64,000 bases of DNA from Planctomycetota bacterium (GTDB lineage Bacteria; Planctomycetota; Planctomycetia; Planctomycetales; Planctomycetaceae), in the NCBI GenBank assembly GCA_030836185.1, contig JAURQH010000031.1, forward strand, positions 1 through 64,000, in the 5' to 3' direction. The notes under the pieces were generated by a model, which saw nothing but the letters and a program-made list of their open reading frames with translations, made no database searches and was not told where the DNA came from. The translations under genes and the position numbers were made by a program. Of this stretch, positions 52,204-64,000 are shown in pieces (within the stretch, counting starts at the first letter, position 1; each line of letters starts with the position of its first letter).

Positions 52204-53169
52204 CTAAGATTCACCATAGATTTGACGATAGGCGATGGTGAATTGTTCGACGTTCATGGAGCCAGAGAGGTCAATCCCCGCCTCTTCAAATTTTGGCTTT
52301 AACCGACGGCTGCGAGCCCACTCATCGGGGGTCAAGCTGCCGTTTTTGTCGGCATCCATTTGCTGAAAGAAGAGTTGTGCCGTCTTTGTCAGAGGGTCTT
52401 TGTCCTCGGACTTCTCGGGAGGTTTGGATGTCTTTTTGATCTCTTTTGTAAGCTGTTTATCAGGTTTGTCATAAGCCACTGGTGTCGGCGATTTGGGATC
52501 ATCAGCACGAGGTGAGGATGTCTGCGGTGGGGAGGAAGCGGCAGGAGAGGGGGCACCAATGGAAGCGAGGTAACCTTCGATTTCTTCTTTGCTCGGAGGA
52601 TTGCTTAATTCTCGCGGTGTCAGAAAACCATCTTGATTGATGTCATAGACGGGGAAGTGATATTTTTCTTCCGGTTTCCATTTTCGCCATTCATACAATC
52701 CAATCTGTCCGTCCTGATCGCTGTCTCCGTCCGCAAAGCGGGAGGGGATATCCACGGTGATTTTCGGCCATTTCTTGGGAGAGTAGGTCGCACTCTTCGA
52801 TGATTTTTTGGAGTCTTCGCGGCGTGGCTCTTCTTTACGAGGCTCTGGTTTCTTTGAGCCTTGTTCTTTTTTGGATCGTTCTTCGTCCCGTTTTTTACGC
52901 ATCTGCTCCATGATACGAGGCATCTCGCGAATGAAGTCTTCCTTGGAGATGCCGCGATCAACAGAAAAATCAGCATTGGCAAAGGCTTCTCGCACAGAAC
53001 TCGGCATGCGACGGACCTCATCGCTATCCAGTTTGCCGTCTTTGTTGCGGTCCAGATAGCCAAAAAATCGCTCTGAACTATTGCTGTCTTGAGCAACTGC
53101 GAGGCTTGTAACAATGAATGCGACGACCAATAATGCGCATAGGATGTGGTGAAATGTATAGTTATTCAT
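52204..53169 (-). CDS. EF-hand domain secreted protein
   Basis: 321 aa from ATG 53169; an open frame extends to 53208. A signal peptide (HHILCALLVVAFIVTSLAVA) is followed by four EF-hand-like loops: DRNKDGKLDSDE, DSDQDGQIGLYE, DINQDGFLTPRE and DADKNGSLTPDE. Between loops one and two lies a Lys/Glu-rich linker, and between three and four a Ser/Pro-rich linker. It probably binds calcium outside the cytoplasm and may link surface proteins. It is divergent from the secretion operon. No Shine-Dalgarno is clear. Confidence 0.87.
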   Translation of the reverse strand: MNNYTFHHILCALLVVAFIVTSLAVAQDSNSSERFFGYLDRNKDGKLDSDEVRRMPSSVREAFANADFSVDRGISKEDFIREMPRIMEQMRKKRDEERSKKEQGSKKPEPRKEEPRREDSKKSSKSATYSPKKWPKITVDIPSRFADGDSDQDGQIGLYEWRKWKPEEKYHFPVYDINQDGFLTPRELSNPPSKEEIEGYLASIGAPSPAASSPPQTSSPRADDPKSPTPVAYDKPDKQLTKEIKKTSKPPEKSEDKDPLTKTAQLFFQQMDADKNGSLTPDEWARSRRLKPKFEEAGIDLSGSMNVEQFTIAYRQIYGES

Positions 53170-53585
53170 TGGCCTGTTTCCGATCTTTCTACGTAACTTT
53201 ATTCCCACTCAGGGGTTTGAAACTTGTGACATTTGTCGGGGGTAAGCTGTTTGTCTGGCCCGCGAGCAAATGCGATAACCGGTATAACCGCTGTACTTTA
53301 TGGCGAATCATCAGAAAGAATCAATCTGACAACTCCCCACAAACCCTAACAGATCATGTGGGGTTCATACTGAAGGATACATCATAAGCCGTTAAACACC
53401 CAATCGTGTCAAAAGTTTTGCAGAAATCGGGGTTCCCAACTCCCTGAGGGGCGGGTCATGATGGAGAGGGCGAGTCCCATGATTCGCTTTTCGATTGTAA
53501 GTCCCCTGTTCACAATAATTTCAGCGTTTTGAGAATCACTATGGAAGCTTTCATCACACACCACTTTTCAGGTTCCGGGCTCACT
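53170..53585. other. Divergent intergenic region upstream of the type II secretion operon
   Basis: About 415 bases between the EF-hand gene and the secretin-N gene. It must carry the operon promoter. No confident promoter, riboswitch or operator was recognised. CCCTGAGGGGCGGG at about 53442 is GC-rich but not a clear terminator. Confidence 0.45.
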
Positions 53586-56500
53586 ATGAATTCACAATGG
53601 AAGTCTCGCACCGGATTCGTTGGAATTCTGACGCTGTTTTGCTTGGGTCTGATTGTTTCTTTCTCTTCCAGTCCCTTGCAGGCTCAGCCTCCCGGTAGTG
53701 GTCGCCCAAGTTTTCGCGGCTTCAGCCCCGGTTTAATGGGAGCTTTGCTGCGAGAGGAAACTCAGAAAGAGCTTAAGCTCAGCGATGACCAAGTGGATAA
53801 GGCTTTGGATATTGCCGACAAATATCGTCCGCAACGTGAAGACATGCAGCCATTCATGGACAGAATGCGTGATGCGAAGACCGACGAAGAGCGAACAAAA
53901 ATTCGCGACGAGATGAAGAGTATGATGGAGAAGAAAGCCAAGAAGTCGGATGAGGAGATCAAAAAGCTGATTGGAAAAGATAAGGTTGAACGTCTCGGCC
54001 AACTTTCTGTTCAGTTTGAGGGACATCGAGCATTGTTGTCTCCAGACATCATGAAGAAGTTGAACCTCAGCGATTCTCAGCAAGAGAAAATTCTCAAAAT
54101 CATGGAAGAACGCTCAGAAGCGCGACGGGATCTGGGTTTTCGCGCCTCGGATGAAGAACGTCTGGCATTTGATCGCGAATGGAATGCAAAAATCTTTGCC
54201 GTCTTGACTCCCGAACAACGTCAAATGTGGCAACAAATCGTTGGCTCGGTTGTTGTTGATAATGGAACGCCCGGCTCAAAATCGGCAAAATTTAATGGAG
54301 CAACGGGATCTCTTGCGGGGAAACAGCAGGATGCGAAAACCGACATCAACAGTGAGATGATTCGTCCCGATGGGCCGGGTGAAGGTCCTCTGGCTTCGTT
54401 TGGTAACGTGGCCGAAGCTGAGCCCGTCGCGCGACCTTACGATGATCAGCCATTACAGGCTCCTGCTGCGAGTGAATCAGAAAAGAGAACTGAAACAACA
54501 TCCCCCGAACCAGAAGAGGCAACAAAGACTGCAACGGAACTTCCCAAACAGGATGGAAGTGTCGGGTTTGGCGGGTTGGAACAATCCGAAACGAAAAAGG
54601 TCTCCTTCAATTTTCGATATGCACCGTGGGCTGATGTTCTGAAAATGTTTTCGGAATTGGCTGGCCTCACCATCGACTTGAACGTCACTCCTCCGGGGAC
54701 TTTCAATTATTATGACGCCAAAGAGTATACGCCGTTGGAAGCGCTCGATGTCCTGAATGGATACTTGCTGCAGAAGGGATATCTGCTTGTGCGACGTAAC
54801 CAGTTTTTGGTGGTATTGAATATTGATGAAGGAATTCCGCCCAATCTGATTCCCAATGTTGCACTCGATGAACTCAAAAATCGTGGCAAAAACGAGATTA
54901 TGCGCATTCGAGTCCCTTTGGCGGGAATCGAAGCCGATCAGGCCGCGCGAGAAGTCGAGGCATTATTAGGGCCGCAAGGTAATGTTGTTCCGCTGCGAAC
55001 TTCCAATTCGTTATTGATCACGGACATTGGTGACAATCTGATGGCGATTGCTCAATTATTAGAAAGTGTGACGACTGAAGAAGACCCAAAGGAAGTGATT
55101 TTTCAGCAGTTTACTCTGAAAAACATGGCGGCCAGTGATGGAGAATCGATGGTTCGAGAGCAATTTGGTATCTCGAAAGTCTTGCCAAACGTGGCGGCGT
55201 TTACCGGCTCTGATAGTCGTCGTTCTTCGAGTTCGCAAACTGCACCGGCCAATACCAGCGGATTGAACATTACATCAGACAATCGTACGAATAGTCTGTT
55301 GGTTACGGCTCCTCGTGCCACGATGAAGCTGATCGAAGATTTGATTAAAGCCATCGATGTTGGAGATGGGACGATTACTCAGACGGGCGACACAGGTGAG
55401 CCTTATCTGAAGGTCTACTTGGTTCAAAATGCCGATGCACGCGAAATTACGAAAACAATTAATGCGTTGCGACCTGGAGTCGTGGTCAATGAGGATGGGA
55501 AATCGCGTCGGGTTCATATTGTGGCGACTGAAACTGAACATGAAGAGATTGGTCAGATGATCAAAGAACTCGATGGGGAAGGAGGAGATACCGCAGTTTC
55601 TGTACTGTATCTCAGCCGTCTCGATCCCATTGGTGCGGCGGCTACTTTGGATTCCCTGTTCATTGGGGATGGTGATCTTGCACCTATTATTCAAGCGGAT
55701 GCGTTTGGCCGTCGACTACTGATTCGTGGTACTCACGAACAATTGACTCAGGTGAAAGCTGTTTTAGCGCAACTTGGCGAAGATGGAACCGAGAAGGCAT
55801 CAGAAAGTGGCCCTGTCATTTCGATACCTCTGGGAGGACGAAACGCGGCTGACATGTTGCGACTGCTTCAACAAAACTGGGAAGCACAGCAGCCCAACCC
55901 GATTCGAATCGTCGTTCCCGGTGCGAGGAATCCTGTGAAAGGCGAGTATGTGCCGTCAAAACCGGGCAATGAAGATGAAACTTCCGAAGATGTTTCCGAT
56001 AAGCGTCCTGCCGACAAAGCCGATTCTTTTACCGCGCAAATGTATCGAGAACTGGAAGTGTTGGTTCGTCAGAAGGAAGGATCGAGTGTCGATCAGGTTT
56101 TGCAGGAAATGGATGAGGAGCTTCAAGAGGTTATCAATAATCAAGAACCAGTTCTTGATTTGACACCCGCCAGTCAGCGACCCGCGGAACCAGATGCTCC
56201 CAAGGCTGATTTGGTCGATGAGCTTGATCGTCGATTGGGAAATGTGATGGAGCCTCAGGTGTCTGACGAGAAATCCTCCGACCCTGTGTTTGTAACGATT
56301 CAGGGTGACAATCTTGTCATTGGGTCTGATGATTCTGAGGCGATCAACAAATTGAAAGATCTGGTTCAGGCGATTGGGATGGCAATGCCTCCTGAGAAAA
56401 ACTGGACGTTGTTTTATCTTCAATCGACGGATGCCACGGAAGTCGCTTATATGCTCGAACAATTGATTCCCGATTCCAGTGTCTCGTCTTCCTCCAGTGG

Positions 56501-57338
56501 GAATGATGGTTCAATCATGGGAAGCCTGATGGGGTTGGGTCAGCAAATGGCCGATGTTTCAGGTTTAAGCTCCGCAGTCGAAAACTCAACCTCTTTGCGT
56601 ATCATCCCGGAAACACGTTTGAACGCTTTGTTCGTGACGGGACCAAATTATCTGGTCGCTGAAGTGGAGCAGTTTTTGAAAGTTCTGGATGCTTCAGAAT
56701 TGCCGGATTCATTGCGAGATCGATTACCACGACAAATTCCCGTTGAGCATGCTGACGTGAATGAGGTCTACAATATTGTGAGTGATGTTTATAAGGACTA
56801 TCTCAGTTCCGGTCGATCGCAAAATGGAAATAATGCGGTGAATCCATTTGCTGCCATGATGGGTGGTCAAAATACAAATACCGCCCCCCAGCTTGCCAAG
56901 TTGACATTGGGAGTCGATGAGCGAACCAGTCAATTGATTGTGTCGGCAGGTGATTCGTTGTTCCGCGAAATTGAGCAGTTGGTAGGTTCGGTTGATCAGT
57001 CTGCTAAAGATGCGAATAAAACAGTCCGCGTTGTTCGTTTGGAATCAGCCGATCCGATTCTGGTTCAACAAACCCTACAGTCCTTATTGCCAAAGGTAAA
57101 AGTTTCAGCGACGGGAACAGAGCGTAAAGCCAACAATAGTAAGAATGATCAGGGGGAGCGAGACCGAGGGAAAGACGATGCCGAACGCCAAGCGGATCAA
57201 ATGCGCAAAATGATGGAACAACGTATGCGCGAACGAATGCAGCAAGGGGGTGGAGGTGGCCAAGATGCCGGTGCTCGATCCCGACTCTTCTCTCCAGGTG
57301 GTAGTGGTCAAAGAGGCGGGGCACGTGGAGGCCGCTAG
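53586..57338 (+). CDS. Secretin-N-domain repeat protein of the type II secretion locus (GspD-like, no barrel seen)
   Basis: 1250 aa from ATG 53586, chosen for the signal peptide (FVGILTLFCLGLIVSFSSS); earlier in-frame ATGs exist. Residues 45-215 resemble Spy/CpxP LTxxQ helices (KLSDDQVDKALDIADKY, NLSDSQQEKILKIME, VLTPEQRQMWQQIVG). A linker leads to N0-like KVSFNFRYAPWADVLKMFSE and then several secretin N1/NolW-type repeats (LKVYLVQNADAREITKTINA, FYLQSTDATEVAYMLEQLIP, IPVEHADVNEVYNIVSDVYK, VRVVRLESADPILVQQTLQS). The C terminus is a Gln/Gly/Arg-rich tail. The conserved secretin channel domain is not recognisable, so a separate secretin is expected. Confidence 0.8.
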   Translation: MNSQWKSRTGFVGILTLFCLGLIVSFSSSPLQAQPPGSGRPSFRGFSPGLMGALLREETQKELKLSDDQVDKALDIADKYRPQREDMQPFMDRMRDAKTDEERTKIRDEMKSMMEKKAKKSDEEIKKLIGKDKVERLGQLSVQFEGHRALLSPDIMKKLNLSDSQQEKILKIMEERSEARRDLGFRASDEERLAFDREWNAKIFAVLTPEQRQMWQQIVGSVVVDNGTPGSKSAKFNGATGSLAGKQQDAKTDINSEMIRPDGPGEGPLASFGNVAEAEPVARPYDDQPLQAPAASESEKRTETTSPEPEEATKTATELPKQDGSVGFGGLEQSETKKVSFNFRYAPWADVLKMFSELAGLTIDLNVTPPGTFNYYDAKEYTPLEALDVLNGYLLQKGYLLVRRNQFLVVLNIDEGIPPNLIPNVALDELKNRGKNEIMRIRVPLAGIEADQAAREVEALLGPQGNVVPLRTSNSLLITDIGDNLMAIAQLLESVTTEEDPKEVIFQQFTLKNMAASDGESMVREQFGISKVLPNVAAFTGSDSRRSSSSQTAPANTSGLNITSDNRTNSLLVTAPRATMKLIEDLIKAIDVGDGTITQTGDTGEPYLKVYLVQNADAREITKTINALRPGVVVNEDGKSRRVHIVATETEHEEIGQMIKELDGEGGDTAVSVLYLSRLDPIGAAATLDSLFIGDGDLAPIIQADAFGRRLLIRGTHEQLTQVKAVLAQLGEDGTEKASESGPVISIPLGGRNAADMLRLLQQNWEAQQPNPIRIVVPGARNPVKGEYVPSKPGNEDETSEDVSDKRPADKADSFTAQMYRELEVLVRQKEGSSVDQVLQEMDEELQEVINNQEPVLDLTPASQRPAEPDAPKADLVDELDRRLGNVMEPQVSDEKSSDPVFVTIQGDNLVIGSDDSEAINKLKDLVQAIGMAMPPEKNWTLFYLQSTDATEVAYMLEQLIPDSSVSSSSSGNDGSIMGSLMGLGQQMADVSGLSSAVENSTSLRIIPETRLNALFVTGPNYLVAEVEQFLKVLDASELPDSLRDRLPRQIPVEHADVNEVYNIVSDVYKDYLSSGRSQNGNNAVNPFAAMMGGQNTNTAPQLAKLTLGVDERTSQLIVSAGDSLFREIEQLVGSVDQSAKDANKTVRVVRLESADPILVQQTLQSLLPKVKVSATGTERKANNSKNDQGERDRGKDDAERQADQMRKMMEQRMRERMQQGGGGGQDAGARSRLFSPGGSGQRGGARGGR

Positions 57339-57396: not shown

Positions 57397-59082
57397 ATGC
57401 AGATTGATCAATTACTCCTCAAGAAAGGCTTGATTTCTGAGCAACAGCTCGATCTCGCGCAATCTCATCGCAACGGGCATCGCCTCGACCAACAATTGAT
57501 CGAAATGGGAGTTCTCTCGGAAGAGGATGCTTTGCAAACCTGGGCTGAAACACTCGGAATGGAGTATGTTGATCTCCAGAAGACAGAGATTGACCTGGAG
57601 CTTCTGCGCGAATTTCCGATGACTGTCATCTATCGGCACTCGGTGTTACCGTTTCGCCAAAACGGGGACTTGGTTTATGTGGCGACCGGTGATCCATTTG
57701 ATCTCGAATCGCTGGATGAACTGTCGGCGATCAGTGGTCGAGAACTAAAGCCGGTTCTCGCACGCAAGTCGGATGTCGTCGAGATGATCAAAACTCATCT
57801 TGGGGTTGGTGGTGATACCATCAATCAGTTGGTGTCTCAACGTCAACAGGAGAATGGCGTCGAGCTACTGGAAGAAATTGACGAAGATATCGGAGAGATG
57901 GCTGGGGAAGCATTAGCCGCTTCTGTGATTCGACTCGTGAATGAATTATTGATTGAAGCCATCGATCAAGAGTCGAGTGACGTTCATATCGAACCGCATG
58001 AAAAAGGGTTGACGGTTCGCTTTCGAGTAGACGGGTTACTTCGAGTTCAGCCTGTCCCTCCTGAAATTAACCACTTTGCTTCGGCGATCATCACCCGCTT
58101 GAAAATTATGTCGCATCTGAATATCGCCGAAAAGCGATTGCCGCAAGATGGGCGTATCAAGTTGCGAGTGAAAGGTCGCGAAATTGACGTTCGTGTGTCG
58201 ATCATCCCCATGATTTTCGGGGAAGGTATCGTCATGCGTTTGCTTGATAAAGAACGGATGGTGTTCAATCTCGCCAATGTTGGTATGCCTGCCGAAATTA
58301 GCACGCCGTTCAAAAATCTGATTAGTCAGCCTCACGGGATTGTTCTCGTCACAGGGCCTACGGGAAGTGGTAAATCGAGTACGTTATACAGTGCGTTGAA
58401 TGAGATCAAAGATCCCAAAACAAAAATTATCACGGTCGAAGATCCTGTTGAATTTCAATCGACGGGTATCAGCCAGATTCAGGTTCATTCACGAATCGGC
58501 TTAACCTTTGCAGCCGGCTTACGAAGTATTTTGCGACACGACCCGGATGTGATTCTGATCGGTGAAATTCGAGACGGTGAAACGGCTCAGTCCGCGATTC
58601 AAGCCTCTCTGACGGGGCACCTTGTCTTCAGTACGTTGCACACCAATGATGCTCCTGGCTCGATGACACGACTGATTGATATGGGAGTTGAGCCTTATCT
58701 AGTGGCCAGTACGGTCGAGGGAGTTCTCGCACAACGTCTTTTGCGAAAACTGTGTCCCAAATGCAAAGTTCTCAATGAATGTCCGGTCGAAGATTATCCC
58801 CACGACTTTCCCGCAGGTCAGGTCAAAGAGATCTATAAAGAGGTTGGTTGTCGTGATTGTCGTGAGATTGGGTATTCTGGACGGACGGGGATTTTTGAAT
58901 TGATGCAAATGGACGAAGAGATCCGTCACATGACGGTGAATAACGCCAGTACCGGTGCAATCCGTAGTCATGCTTTGAAAAATGGAATGGTGTCGTTGCG
59001 TCAATCCGGTTGGAAAAAAGTTCTTGAAGGCGTGACCAGCATCGATGAAGTCTTACGGATCAGTAAAGGAGAGTATTCCTGA
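57397..59082 (+). CDS. gspE: Type II secretion/pilus assembly ATPase GspE
   Basis: 561 aa. An N-terminal GspE/MshEN domain ([20 protein letters not shown]) precedes the ATPase core: Walker [19 protein letters not shown] near residue 318, Asp box and Walker [18 protein letters not shown], His box [14 protein letters not shown] four-Cys zinc motif is split as CPKC and CRDC at about 450-490. It powers pseudopilus assembly from the cytoplasmic face. It lies 58 bases after the secretin-N gene. Confidence 0.95.
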
Positions 59083-59150: not shown

Positions 59151-60359
59151 ATGCCCGAATTTCAGTACGAAGCCCGACTCGCCTCGGGTCAACAAACCAG
59201 CGGAGTATTAACTGCTGCCAACGAACAGGATGCTCTGGGCATTCTTTCAAGTCGGCAGTTGTTTCCGCTGCGCGTGATGATGAGTGAAGAATCGGTCAAA
59301 GCGGCGGCGAAATCGCAGAAGCGAGTCAGCAATAAATTGTTGACCGGTTTCTACACAAAACTGGCAGACTTATTGACGGCTGGTGTCCCTCTATTACGTT
59401 CTTTGCAATTGATCATCGAACAGACCTCTCATTCCGGTTTGAAGACGATCATCCAAGACATCAATGACCAGGTAGCCGACGGAACTCGTTTGGCCGAAGC
59501 GATGGCCAAACACCCCAAAACTTTCAACGACCTTGTTTTGAGTATGGTTCGCGCGGGTGAAGAGGGGGGATTTCTTGAAGATGTGTTGAAGCGGGTTGCC
59601 TCGTTTAATGAGCACCAGGAAGAGCTGAAAAGTCGAGTGGTCGGGGCCATGATTTATCCCTCGTTTCTGTGTCTGGCCGGTGCTTCGATTGTCACCGTAA
59701 TGATGGTCGTATTTGTTCCAAAATTTGCTCCCATCTTTTCCCGCATGCAGGATCGTGGTGAGCTCCCCATGGCCACCACGACGTTACTGGGGCTGAGTGA
59801 GTTTCTGCAGTCTTACTGGTTGATCGCCATCATGGCATTGGTGGGAATTGGAGTTGCAGCACAGCGTTGGTTGGACACTGACGAGGGGCGAGAAAAATTT
59901 GACATGTTTCGGCTGAAGGCTTGGGGGATCGGTATCATTGTTAAAAATCTGGCCATTGCCAGGTTCTGCCGTATTTTAGGAACTTTGCTGCACAACGGCG
60001 TGCCGATTTTGCAATCGTTACGGATTGCCAAAGACGCGACCGGAAATCGGGTTTTATCCACGGCGATTGGAGAAGCTGCCGACAATGTTTCCAGTGGAAA
60101 GTCGTTGGCCGAGCCGTTGCGAGCATCGGGACAATTTCCCAAAGAGATTATGGAGATGATCTCTGTGGGAGAAGAAGCCAATAATCTGGAACAGGTACTC
60201 ATTAATATTTCCGACAATCTCGAACGCCAAACCAACCGTCAACTCGACATGTTGGTGAGAATGGTAGAGCCTTTGATGCTGCTGCTGATGGCTGTGATTG
60301 TTGTGTATATTATTTTTGCATTGCTGTACCCCGTGCTGATGATGTCGGGACTATCTTGA
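59151..60359 (+). CDS. gspF: Type II secretion inner membrane protein GspF
   Basis: 402 aa with two T2SSF domains. The first reads FYTKLADLLTAGVPLLRSLQ and MVRAGEEGGFLEDVLKRVA; the second FCRILGTLLHNGVPILQSLR and MISVGEEANNLEQVLINIS. Three membrane segments are visible, ending in LMLLLMAVIVVYIIFALLYP. GspF is the platform protein that couples GspE to the pseudopilus. The N terminus FQYEARLASGQQTSGVL is typical. Confidence 0.94.
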   Translation: MPEFQYEARLASGQQTSGVLTAANEQDALGILSSRQLFPLRVMMSEESVKAAAKSQKRVSNKLLTGFYTKLADLLTAGVPLLRSLQLIIEQTSHSGLKTIIQDINDQVADGTRLAEAMAKHPKTFNDLVLSMVRAGEEGGFLEDVLKRVASFNEHQEELKSRVVGAMIYPSFLCLAGASIVTVMMVVFVPKFAPIFSRMQDRGELPMATTTLLGLSEFLQSYWLIAIMALVGIGVAAQRWLDTDEGREKFDMFRLKAWGIGIIVKNLAIARFCRILGTLLHNGVPILQSLRIAKDATGNRVLSTAIGEAADNVSSGKSLAEPLRASGQFPKEIMEMISVGEEANNLEQVLINISDNLERQTNRQLDMLVRMVEPLMLLLMAVIVVYIIFALLYPVLMMSGLS

Positions 60360-60371
60360 TTTGGAATTGCT

Positions 60372-61193
60372 ATGTTTGGTCGTTTGAAACTGAAATATGA
60401 TCAATATCGTGAACGTCGCCAGTATGAAGACTGGTTGTCGAACGGTGAGGTTGTGTATCAACAGAATCTGAAGGGGGAGAGCAATGGTCCCCACGGCGTC
60501 TTTGATACTCTACAGTTTCGCAATGGTCTCCAATGGCATGTGAATGATCCTGGTTCCGCTGCTTATATTTTTCAGGAGATGTTTATTCGCGGGGAGTACG
60601 ACTTCCCTGAGCTTTGCGGGGCTAAAACGATTTTGGATATCGGGTCAAACATTGGTCTGTTTTCCTGTTTCGCGTCTCTGAAAAATTCAAATTCCCAAAT
60701 TCATTCGTTCGAACCAGATTTGGCAAACTACAAGGTGCTGGAAAAGAATCTTGAACAACTGGAAGCCAGCGTTCAGTTGAATCATGCGGCAGTGGCTTCA
60801 GTCGCCGGAGAGTTGGAGTTCTTTTCGGCTGAGTTTGGTGGCTGGTCCTCTGCCTTTGGAGTGTTGGGAGCAGAAAATGCGGAGTCTTACAAAGTCCCCG
60901 CCATTGTTCTGTCTGATTACCTGCAACAGCATTGCATCGAATGTATTGACTTTATGAAAATTGATGTTGAAGGGAGTGAGTACGACATTTTGATCGGTGA
61001 CGATCAACTTTGGGAGACGGAGATCAAATGTTTGGTCGTCGAGATTGATCGAACTCCCCGTGATGAGCGTTATGCAGGCGTGGATTTACACGCCTATTTA
61101 AAAGAAAAATTCGAATCTATTGAGTGTGCATCGCCCGATGCACCTTATCCCGTTTATTCTTGTCGTCAGTCAAAACTGGCTGTCAAACATTGA
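60372..61193 (+). CDS. FkbM family methyltransferase within the secretion operon
   Basis: 273 aa. SAM-binding motif ILDIGSNIGLFSCFASL lies at about residue 90, followed by SFEPDLANYKVLEKNL and the FkbM signature FMKIDVEGSEYDILIG. FkbM enzymes O-methylate sugars or natural products. It lies 12 bases after gspF and 27 bases before gspG, in the same direction, so it is part of the operon. This is not a standard type II secretion gene. It may methylate a glycan on pseudopilins or another exported substrate, or be a passenger; this is inference. Confidence 0.88.
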   Translation: MFGRLKLKYDQYRERRQYEDWLSNGEVVYQQNLKGESNGPHGVFDTLQFRNGLQWHVNDPGSAAYIFQEMFIRGEYDFPELCGAKTILDIGSNIGLFSCFASLKNSNSQIHSFEPDLANYKVLEKNLEQLEASVQLNHAAVASVAGELEFFSAEFGGWSSAFGVLGAENAESYKVPAIVLSDYLQQHCIECIDFMKIDVEGSEYDILIGDDQLWETEIKCLVVEIDRTPRDERYAGVDLHAYLKEKFESIECASPDAPYPVYSCRQSKLAVKH

Positions 61194-61220: not shown

Positions 61221-61691
61221 ATGCACATTCGGAAGTCAAATAAACAGCAACAAAGTCGTCGCGGTGGTTTTACCTTGCTCGAACTGTTGATCGTGCTGGG
61301 AATTATTCTCGCAATTGCCGCGATGGTGGTTCCGAACCTTCTCGGTCGGCAACAGGAAGCCAACATTAAGCAGACGAGAATCAATATCGCCAACTTTGAT
61401 CAGGCGACCAAGCAATATGCGGCCAGTCACAACGCCGAGTTTCCGCAAGGTGGTCAAACGGATGTCGTTCAGATGTTGATGTCGGGTGAGTCTTCTGAAG
61501 GGCAAGTGATCCAGCCTTATCTGGAAGCCGTTCCCAAAGATGCTTGGGGGATTCCATTGTTTTACGAGTACCCCAATACGAAAAACTCCGGGGGAGTCGA
61601 TAAACCGGCAATTTGGTCGTCTGGACCTGACAAACAAAATCAGGATGGTGGTGGAGATGATATCACCAACTGGTCACAAACCGGTCTTTGA
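61221..61691 (+). CDS. gspG: Type II secretion major pseudopilin GspG
   Basis: 156 aa. The prepilin cleavage site is RRGGFTLLELLIVLGIILAI, with the conserved Glu at +5 of the mature protein and a single hydrophobic helix. The C-terminal domain has the GspG pattern DAWGIPLFYEYPNTKNSGGV and ends in IWSSGPDKQNQDGGGDDITN, the calcium-binding loop region of major pseudopilins. Cleaved and methylated by a prepilin peptidase that must be encoded elsewhere. Confidence 0.93.
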   Translation: MHIRKSNKQQQSRRGGFTLLELLIVLGIILAIAAMVVPNLLGRQQEANIKQTRINIANFDQATKQYAASHNAEFPQGGQTDVVQMLMSGESSEGQVIQPYLEAVPKDAWGIPLFYEYPNTKNSGGVDKPAIWSSGPDKQNQDGGGDDITNWSQTGL

Positions 61692-61734: not shown

Positions 61735-62334
61735 ATGAGAAAGGTGAGTTCTGAGTCTCGGTCATCTCGATCCGGCTTCACTTTGTTTGAACTGTTACTG
61801 GTTCTCGGAGTGATGCTGCTGATTGCGGGGATCGTTTGGCCCAGAATGCTCGCCTTCTATCAGACTTCTGCTCTGAAAGATCACGGTCGTCGCGTTCATG
61901 ACACGATCTCAGCAACGCGAATTGCCGCCATCGATCACGGGATTGCTTATCAGTTCTTTTATGAGCCGGAAGGCCGTCATTATTTAATGGTGCCGAGTGA
62001 GGAAACACCTGTTTCGGGAAATACGGAAGACTCAGGCGAAACATTTGTGTTGCCGGCTCGGGCTGGGCAGGTTCCTGAAGAGTTTGTGTTTAAAGCGTCC
62101 AAAGGCGAGGAAGCAGGAAGTGTTAGCCTTTCTCCCGAAGTGCTGAAGGATGTTCCTGAAGACCTCGATCTTTCGAGCGTCAATTGGTCGATCCCTGTCG
62201 TGTTTTATCCCGATGGCAGTGGCAGCGATATTCGATTTGAATTGGAAGACGATCAGTCTCAATATGTTTCGTTCTCAGTAAGATCGCTGACGGGGACCGC
62301 GTCTCTCTCCACCATCGCGAGGAGATCGCGATGA
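61735..62334 (+). CDS. gspH: Minor pseudopilin GspH-like
   Basis: 199 aa. The prepilin motif SRSGFTLFELLLVLGVMLLI has Glu at +5 of the mature chain, followed by a beta-rich globular domain (AIDHGIAYQFFYEPEGRHYL, VVFYPDGSGSDIRFELED) as in GspH. It belongs to the pseudopilus tip complex by position and size. The stop overlaps the start of the next gene by ATGA. Confidence 0.87.
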   Translation: MRKVSSESRSSRSGFTLFELLLVLGVMLLIAGIVWPRMLAFYQTSALKDHGRRVHDTISATRIAAIDHGIAYQFFYEPEGRHYLMVPSEETPVSGNTEDSGETFVLPARAGQVPEEFVFKASKGEEAGSVSLSPEVLKDVPEDLDLSSVNWSIPVVFYPDGSGSDIRFELEDDQSQYVSFSVRSLTGTASLSTIARRSR

Positions 62335-62762
62335 AACAGAACACGATACGCCGAAATAAGTCCGTATCTCGGTCGGCGTTTACACTCTTGGAAGTAGTGA
62401 TTGCCGTGGCGATATTGCTCGGCTCGATCACAGCACTATTTCAATTGTTGACTCTTGGTCATCGATCATTGACGCAAGCACAGTTTCGGACTGATGCGGT
62501 ATTGCTGGCAGATTTGAAGATGAACGAAGCCGTCGCTGGCATTATCACACTTCAATCGACCTCGGAAGATGAGTCTGAAGACTATCCGGGATGGTTGTGG
62601 TCATTATCTGTGGACGATGCGGGTGTCGATGACTTATTGCAGGTCACTGTGACGGTGCGGCGAGAGGCAACTTCAGTGGCTGCCGAACATGAGTATTCTG
62701 CAACACGATTCATTCGCGACCCACAAATCTTTCTGGATGCAGCCTTGGGAGAAGAATCATGA
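62331..62762 (+). CDS. gspI: Minor pseudopilin GspI-like
   Basis: 143 aa. Prepilin motif SRSAFTLLEVVIAVAILLGS, then a short globular part with ADLKMNEAVAGI and a Trp-rich strand (DYPGWLWSLSVDDAG). Size and order between GspH and GspJ support GspI, which seeds the tip complex. ATGA overlaps occur at both ends. Confidence 0.87.
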   Translation: MKQNTIRRNKSVSRSAFTLLEVVIAVAILLGSITALFQLLTLGHRSLTQAQFRTDAVLLADLKMNEAVAGIITLQSTSEDESEDYPGWLWSLSVDDAGVDDLLQVTVTVRREATSVAAEHEYSATRFIRDPQIFLDAALGEES

Positions 62763-63706
62763 AACGATTCGGATTCCAAGCTCGCAAGGTCAGCCGTCGA
62801 GGGATCAGTCTGCTCGAATTGCTCATTGCGTTAGGGTTGGGGATATTACTCATTGGCTCAGTGGGGGCGACATTAATTATCATCTTGCGGACGGAAGCGG
62901 CTGGCCGACAAAAGATGGAACGCGCACAACTTGTGCGAGCACTTTATTTGAGAATGAGCGATGACCTGCGGGCGGTCACGTTTCTCGAAGAGTTTGCCAC
63001 CAACGAAGAGTCGAGCGATCAGTCTGCGGCAGAATCTGTCGATCAGGATGATATTGAATCGGAATTGGGAATTGAAGACAGCGAAGAATTTCTGTCTCCT
63101 TCAGAAGCCATTATGGAGAAAACAAACGGACTCTACGGCGATGAATCGTCGCTCGTGATATTTATTCATCGTCCCGCACGTTTGCCGGCTCGAATTGCCA
63201 CACAGTCGTCACTCTCTGAAGAGGATGAAGTGATCGATTCCGTGACGGATAGTGGTCTACGAACCGTCTCCTGGTATCTCAATGGAAGCTCTTCCATCGG
63301 CTCGTTAGTTGGCGAATCGGACATTTCATCAAGTTTGGTTGATAACCTGAGGTTTGATGACTCTGGCTCGGGCGGTCTTTCTCGGTTGGAGCAAGATGCG
63401 TTGGAAGTGAATTTCTCCGACGATGTGACCGACATCCTCGGGATTCAGGCAGAGTTATTAGCGCCTGAAATACAAATGGTCCAGTTTCGTTACTTTGATG
63501 GTGCAGATTGGGTGTCGCAGTGGGATTCTGCGATTCAGGAACGTCTGCCGAGTGCTGTGGAAGTCACGCTGACTTTTGAAGAAGTGGACGCTCAGGCAAA
63601 TCGTCTTCTGTTTGGAGAAGAACCGATTGGAGCAGAGAAGAATACGATGCGATTTGTGGTCGCGTTGTCGATGGCTCCTCCGCCATTAACGGAGGTGGAG
63701 TTATGA
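62759..63706 (+). CDS. gspJ: Minor pseudopilin GspJ-like
   Basis: 315 aa. The N terminus SRRGISLLELLIALGLGILL is a prepilin motif with Glu at +5. A longer, acidic globular domain follows (EESSDQSAAESVDQDDIESE), with the GspJ-like block MVQFRYFDGADWVSQWDSAI and LPSAVEVTLTFEEV near the end. It is longer than the usual 200-aa GspJ because of the acidic insert. It overlaps gspI and gspK by four bases each. Confidence 0.85.
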   Translation: MKRFGFQARKVSRRGISLLELLIALGLGILLIGSVGATLIIILRTEAAGRQKMERAQLVRALYLRMSDDLRAVTFLEEFATNEESSDQSAAESVDQDDIESELGIEDSEEFLSPSEAIMEKTNGLYGDESSLVIFIHRPARLPARIATQSSLSEEDEVIDSVTDSGLRTVSWYLNGSSSIGSLVGESDISSSLVDNLRFDDSGSGGLSRLEQDALEVNFSDDVTDILGIQAELLAPEIQMVQFRYFDGADWVSQWDSAIQERLPSAVEVTLTFEEVDAQANRLLFGEEPIGAEKNTMRFVVALSMAPPPLTEVEL

Positions 63707-64000
63707 AAAATCCAGATCGATCAGGCGGCACAATTCATCCTCGGCAAGGTTCCGCATTGCTGGCGGTTTTAGTGATCGTGGCCATGTTGTCACTGGCCGC
63801 TTATTCGTACTCGGAAGTGATGCTCTCAGAATATGAAGCGGCGATTCGAACGGGTCGTATGACCGAGTCTCGTTTATTAGCCGATTCGGGTGTGGAGTGG
63901 ACGTTGTCAGTTCTCAGCTTGATGAGTTCGGAAGAACCGCTCGATTTATTCAATAACCCGGAACAGTTTCACAAAGTTCTCGTTCAATCAGCGACTGAAG
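63703..64000 (+). CDS. gspK: Minor pseudopilin GspK-like, truncated by window edge
   Basis: The first 99 residues are present and the gene continues past the right edge. After a basic N terminus, GSALLAVLVIVAMLSLAAYS is a GspK-type hydrophobic segment lacking the Glu at +5, as expected for GspK. MTESRLLADSGVEWTLSVLS fits the following helix. The start ATG shares ATGA with the gspJ stop and has GGAGG upstream. Confidence 0.85.
   Translation, partial: MKNPDRSGGTIHPRQGSALLAVLVIVAMLSLAAYSYSEVMLSEYEAAIRTGRMTESRLLADSGVEWTLSVLSLMSSEEPLDLFNNPEQFHKVLVQSATE

Follow-up and report, generated by a model that had tools for sequence, protein, structure and literature searches.

To our knowledge, known secretins carry their periplasmic rings and their outer-membrane barrel in one chain. 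SpoIIIAG and PrgK/EscJ are barrel-less ring-building proteins with folds of the ring-building motif (RBM) type, of which they contain one or few. The RBM is the motif from which secretin rings are built, and its complete form is beta-alpha-beta-beta-alpha. In Thermus thermophilus PilQ, six N rings span most of the wide periplasm (PMC5745081), and in Klebsiella the four N rings of the secretin, together with the HR domain of PulC, extend into the periplasm for about 20 nm (PMC6882859). The stretch of DNA analysed here (the window, 64,000 nucleotides) opens contig C7 in an assembly of 5.16 Mb. The first gene of its type II secretion system (T2SS) operon encodes a barrel-less secretin N-module protein, hereafter DN. 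The protein resembles GspD/PulD (TIGR02517; PDB 6hcg, 3ezj) in its N0 and N-domain folds and in its operon context, but it has no barrel, seven RBMs instead of N1-N3, an extra Spy-like domain, and a separate complete GspD alongside. A literature search, with subscription papers and preprints outside its scope, returned no description of DN or of such a planctomycete T2SS secretin.

The open reading frame of DN is genuine; it runs on the plus strand from an ATG at 53586 to a stop codon at 57338 and encodes 1250 aa. An alternative in-frame ATG is present at 53541, so that the choice of start codon is uncertain. A Sec signal peptide was read from the sequence at residues 1-33 (53586..53684, with SSPLQA before the cleavage site and Q after it), and it is weakly conserved (dN 0.19 against the nearest relative). 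It is followed by an all-helical Spy/LTXXQ-like domain (residues ~50-219, 53733..54242) and by a low-complexity linker (residues ~225-335, 54258..54590), which is predicted to be disordered, with pLDDT mostly below 50 and a raised dN. The N0 domain (residues 338-433, 54597..54884) was recognised by the AlphaFold model, by Foldseek and by a TIGR02517 match beginning at residue 342. RBM1 (54897..55076), RBM2 (55095..55358, also found by Pfam), RBM3 (55404..55574), RBM4 (55593..55775), RBM5 (55815..56384), RBM6 (56403..56693) and RBM7 (56727..57017) were delimited with the model and a motif HMM, RBM5 being split by a variable low-confidence insertion (residues ~777-900). The model then shows only the first, beta-alpha half of RBM8 (57018..57113). 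The chain ends in a Gly/Arg/Gln-rich tail (57114..57335, last residues GGR), assigned from the sequence and from comparison with orthologues, across which its Gly/Arg composition is conserved.

The AlphaFold model was built from a 59-sequence alignment, and it contains the helical domain, the disordered linker, N0, seven complete RBMs, the half eighth and the tail, with no barrel. Within-domain pLDDT was mostly 80-95; since the pTM was 0.34, the positions of the domains relative to each other are unreliable. The best Foldseek matches of the model were the N domains of PulD, XcpQ and ETEC GspD (6hcg, 4ec5, 3ezj). Pfam detected Secretin_N (PF03958) repeats in six stretches (E 2.4e-45). An HMM of the beta-beta-alpha half of the motif, which gave 3 hits in 54 shuffled proteins, found seven copies in DN and 6-8 in orthologues. 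The best stretch against TIGR02517, the GspD profile, pairs DN residues 342-628 with profile positions 2-256, corresponding to the N0/N-domain part, and the score of 139 bits lies far below the equivalog cut-off of 351 bits. The secretin channel domain PF00263 was absent from DN even at E <= 1 in the Pfam scan, and from all 19 orthologues scanned at E <= 0.1.

When the helical domain was scanned alone against PF07813 (LTXXQ), it scored 35.6 bits, above the cut-off of 24.3, as compared with only 17 bits in the scan of full-length DN. All 40 orthologous helical domains tested match PF07813 at E <= 0.1. The best PDB profile hits of the domain are to Spy (E 1.3e-5), and its pLDDT is 89.7. Foldseek returned nothing significant for this domain. 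VIA-align placed Spy at the top of its list with Z 7.5 over 82 residues, a range that is common for helical models and hence weak. The preliminary description had proposed LTxxQ-type helices at the start of the protein, at least four N1/NolW-like repeats and a Gln/Gly/Arg tail lacking a secretin channel signature. The profile results bear out the helices, the repeats number more than the minimum then given, and the tail was seen as described. A secretin domain in the C-terminal third, named beforehand as the result that would speak against that description, was sought with profiles and the model and was not found.

The gene order of the operon is DN-gspE-gspF-methyltransferase-gspG-H-I-J-K-L-M-gspD-lipoprotein. 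On the plus strand of the window were located the ATPase gene gspE (57397..59082; TIGR02533, 609 bits), gspF (59151..60359), the major pseudopilin gene gspG (61221..61691), the pseudopilin-like genes gspH (61735..62334), gspI (62331..62762) and gspJ (62759..63706), all from profile scans, and the start of gspK (63703..64000). The operon runs on past the window with gspL, gspM, gspD and the lipoprotein gene. The true GspD, of ~1250 aa (contig C7 68871-72626, equal to L007:5872-9627), has PF00263 at E 7.6e-45 and Secretin_N repeats. It lies in the same operon, 11.5 kb downstream of DN and just outside the window. The preliminary description had suggested that another protein might supply the channel and had named the region downstream of gspK as the place to look, and this GspD is found there. 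DN is thus a T2SS component by context, being encoded with gspE-gspK and a GspD in an arrangement that is conserved in relatives. The scan of the operon proteins revealed no recognisable GspC.

Several neighbouring genes deserve mention. The protein in the GspM position (L007:3955-5649) contains the Ig-like domains He_PIG and RibLong; by eye its C-terminal domain resembles the HR domain of GspC, and PDB and Pfam profile searches for such a domain gave no credible match. The gene between gspF and gspG (60372-61193) is a putative FkbM-like methyltransferase, identified by eye with no profile; the relative G059 (L049) has the gene, but G003, which belongs to the same genus, and the other loci compared yielded none. 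The divergent neighbour of DN (52204-53208, minus strand) has EF-hand-like motifs, as read from its sequence. Upstream of DN, contigs L088, L090, L105, L120, L122 and L130 carry a GspM-like gene in divergent orientation. Two further secretin genes are present in the genome, one for a protein of 1431 aa with a C-terminal secretin match (L009:7886-12181) and one for a protein of 508 aa with pilus-type N-terminal and BON domains (L010:6594-8120).

The order DN-E-F-G-H-I-J-K-L-M-D is kept across the genera of the family, and wherever contigs extend far enough, DN nearly always adjoins gspE. A DN-type match was obtained in 60 of 61 family genomes, some of the weak ones possibly being other N-repeat paralogues. 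The named genome contigs are recorded as planctomycetes, among them Thalassoglobus neptunius, Alienimonas chondri and Gimesia, with the label Kuenenia on a few and only 'bacterium' on two. In a survey of 118 Planctomycetia genomes (single-sequence searches, GspD-type threshold E <= 1e-40, counted by hand), this type of GspD was present in 77 and a DN match in 74 of these, counts that are inflated by the shared ancestry of the genomes. In two of the remaining three, a DN-type N0 forms part of a fused frame. Of the 41 genomes without this GspD, a single one gave a DN match, and that genome matches GspD weakly. In G052, which belongs to the same family and is rated 100% complete, DN, this GspD and the cognate GspE are missing together. 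Outside Planctomycetia, a match was detected in only one sampled genome, where a DN of 2117 aa lies beside gspE. The partnership of DN and GspD is well supported.

Comparison with the nearest relative gave a dN/dS of ~0.07 for DN overall. The most constrained part is N0-RBM4, with dN/dS ~0.014 (dN 0.014, dS 0.98). Judged from these substitution rates, DN is under strong purifying selection, which shows that it is no decaying pseudogene.

In other families the two proteins are joined. Domain HMMs identified DN and GspD in one protein of 1893-3270 aa in 11 genomes of three families, and 11 more fusions were inferred from DN and GspD searches that hit the same contig and frame length. The fused order is N0, DN RBMs, Gly/Arg linker, GspD RBMs and secretin, with the DN part N-terminal, and wherever the contig shows its position, the fusion stands in the place of GspD behind gspM. 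In the only fusion operon seen whole (L177 with L159), the operon starts at gspE, with no separate DN gene before it, and the fusion stands in the slot after gspM; the motif HMM gave seven hits in its DN part and five in its GspD part. The joint falls inside RBM8: the beta-alpha half comes from DN, the Gly/Arg-rich linker follows, and the beta-beta-alpha half lies at GspD residue ~385. Residues 280-356 of GspD find their best match in DN RBM7 to half-RBM8 in 17 of 19 DN proteins; as far as sequence comparison can suggest, the separate GspD would be a paralogue built on this long plan and since shortened. In a GspD tree with midpoint root and no outgroup, fusions branch from either side of the root, and a single clade holds 15 of the 16 split GspDs; this is compatible with a fused ancestor that was later split.

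Barrel-less relatives of DN also reach giant size. Proteins of 2117-3265 aa with 19-37 detected RBMs were found in L148, L149, L150, L174, L175 and L187, the motif HMM counting 19 (L187), 20, 29 and 37. Giants of 2208 and 2430 aa head complete operons that have an ordinary GspD (L149/L172, L173/L174). A second barrel-less N-repeat family of ~1000-1100 aa was also noted (L164:2684-5845, L165:4637-7672, L158:1866-5177); it adjoins pilin-like genes in L164 and L165 and was not seen in the genome of the window.

DN is probably the detached periplasmic neck of the planctomycete type II secretin, a stack of rings that lengthens the conduit. According to this model, DN would form oligomeric rings as other secretin N domains do, and these rings would stack on the inner-membrane side of GspD. 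The stack would lengthen the conduit around the pseudopilus across the wide periplasm, while GspD would provide the outer-membrane gate. The N-terminal Spy-like domain would be nearest the inner membrane, where its role may be to hold clients or to make contact with the assembly platform. The fusions, the near 1:1 pairing of DN with GspD and the 7-37 RBMs agree with a spacer in physical continuity with the secretin. On the same three observations we infer coaxial stacking and the role of periplasmic extension or ruler put forward in the preliminary description, which holds to that extent. With the four N rings and PulC HR of Klebsiella reaching ~20 nm, eight more rings could, by simple arithmetic, add a comparable length. 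Thermus PilQ offers a precedent, its additional N rings making the periplasmic tube longer, as those of DN would; in PilQ rings and barrel form one chain, whereas here the rings are a separate gene, with up to 37 RBMs in relatives. SpoIIIAG and PrgK/EscJ share RBM folds without a secretin barrel, but they belong to different systems, and DN is a repeat array in a T2SS operon that is fused to GspD in relatives. Against the neck model, the DN gene heads the operon and the GspD gene lies towards its far end, and some genomes carry GspD elsewhere. The fusions could also be derived, and a fused protein is no proof that separate chains stack end to end.

DN and the separate GspD each retain an N0. 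This speaks against the neck model, since DN could dock next to GspD instead of below it, and it favours a different arrangement. A role of DN as an adaptor linking to the inner membrane is plausible, as no GspC was recognised among the scanned proteins of the operon. On this reading, DN would be a scaffold or assembly factor on the inner-membrane side in the place of GspC, its N domains gripping GspD and its Spy-like domain gripping the platform, with no coaxial tube. The gene is tied to gspE, not gspD, in nearly all loci, and in Klebsiella it is PulC that joins the secretin base to the platform (PMC6882859). The fusions, however, place the DN domains in one chain with the secretin, and giants with 20-37 RBMs look like an extension of length, not an adaptor. 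We regard this scaffold as unlikely, though it deserves consideration.

The Spy-like domain raises the question of a substrate-handling periplasmic chaperone, whose helices would hold clients while the N domains pass them to GspD. The domain shares LTxxQ motifs in helices with Spy/CpxP (PF07813), but Spy/CpxP is a free chaperone and the version in DN is a domain heading a large repeat protein. Its identity is supported by sequence, the structural match being weak, and two genomes of other families have an extra LTXXQ-only gene between DN and gspE (L155:10123-10998, L156:6782-7762), as would suit a chaperone. In contrast, the domain was undetected in relatives of ~920-960 aa and in the DN::GspD fusions, while the RBMs are always kept, and the strongest constraint falls on N0-RBM4. 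The chaperone reading is quite improbable.

Two readings were rejected as having next to no chance of being correct. A secretin with a degenerate barrel, too diverged for recognition, would explain the operon and the GspD-like N domains, but profile scans, orthologues and the AlphaFold model speak against it: the C-terminal third consists of RBM6, RBM7, half RBM8 and the Gly/Arg tail, none of the 19 orthologues has PF00263, and a bona fide GspD is present. A truncated GspD pseudogene or assembly error, which the end of the fold inside an RBM might suggest, disagrees with conservation and the low dN/dS, as orthologues from independent genomes share the Gly/Arg-rich type of tail and the operon position.

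In Planctopirus, Boedeker et al. (PMC5394234) described crateriform structures in contact with the inner membrane, from which 12-nm fibres extend. Their link to this operon is hypothetical. A bolder proposal would combine both: a two-protein modular secretin, in which a separate barrel-less stack, ~8 to 38 rings high, determines how long the conduit from inner to outer membrane is, and whose machines are the crateriform structures, fastening the inner membrane near the wall and bearing the pili-like fibres. As a whole this proposal is doubtful. The extra rings are a separate gene here; some other families have them fused to the secretin, and in others they are expanded to 20-37 motifs. The split, fused and expanded forms of DN offer a natural series in which to ask how secretion machines adapt to the width of the periplasm, and the DN operon may, hypothetically, provide candidate genes for the crateriform structures that span the envelope of Planctopirus.
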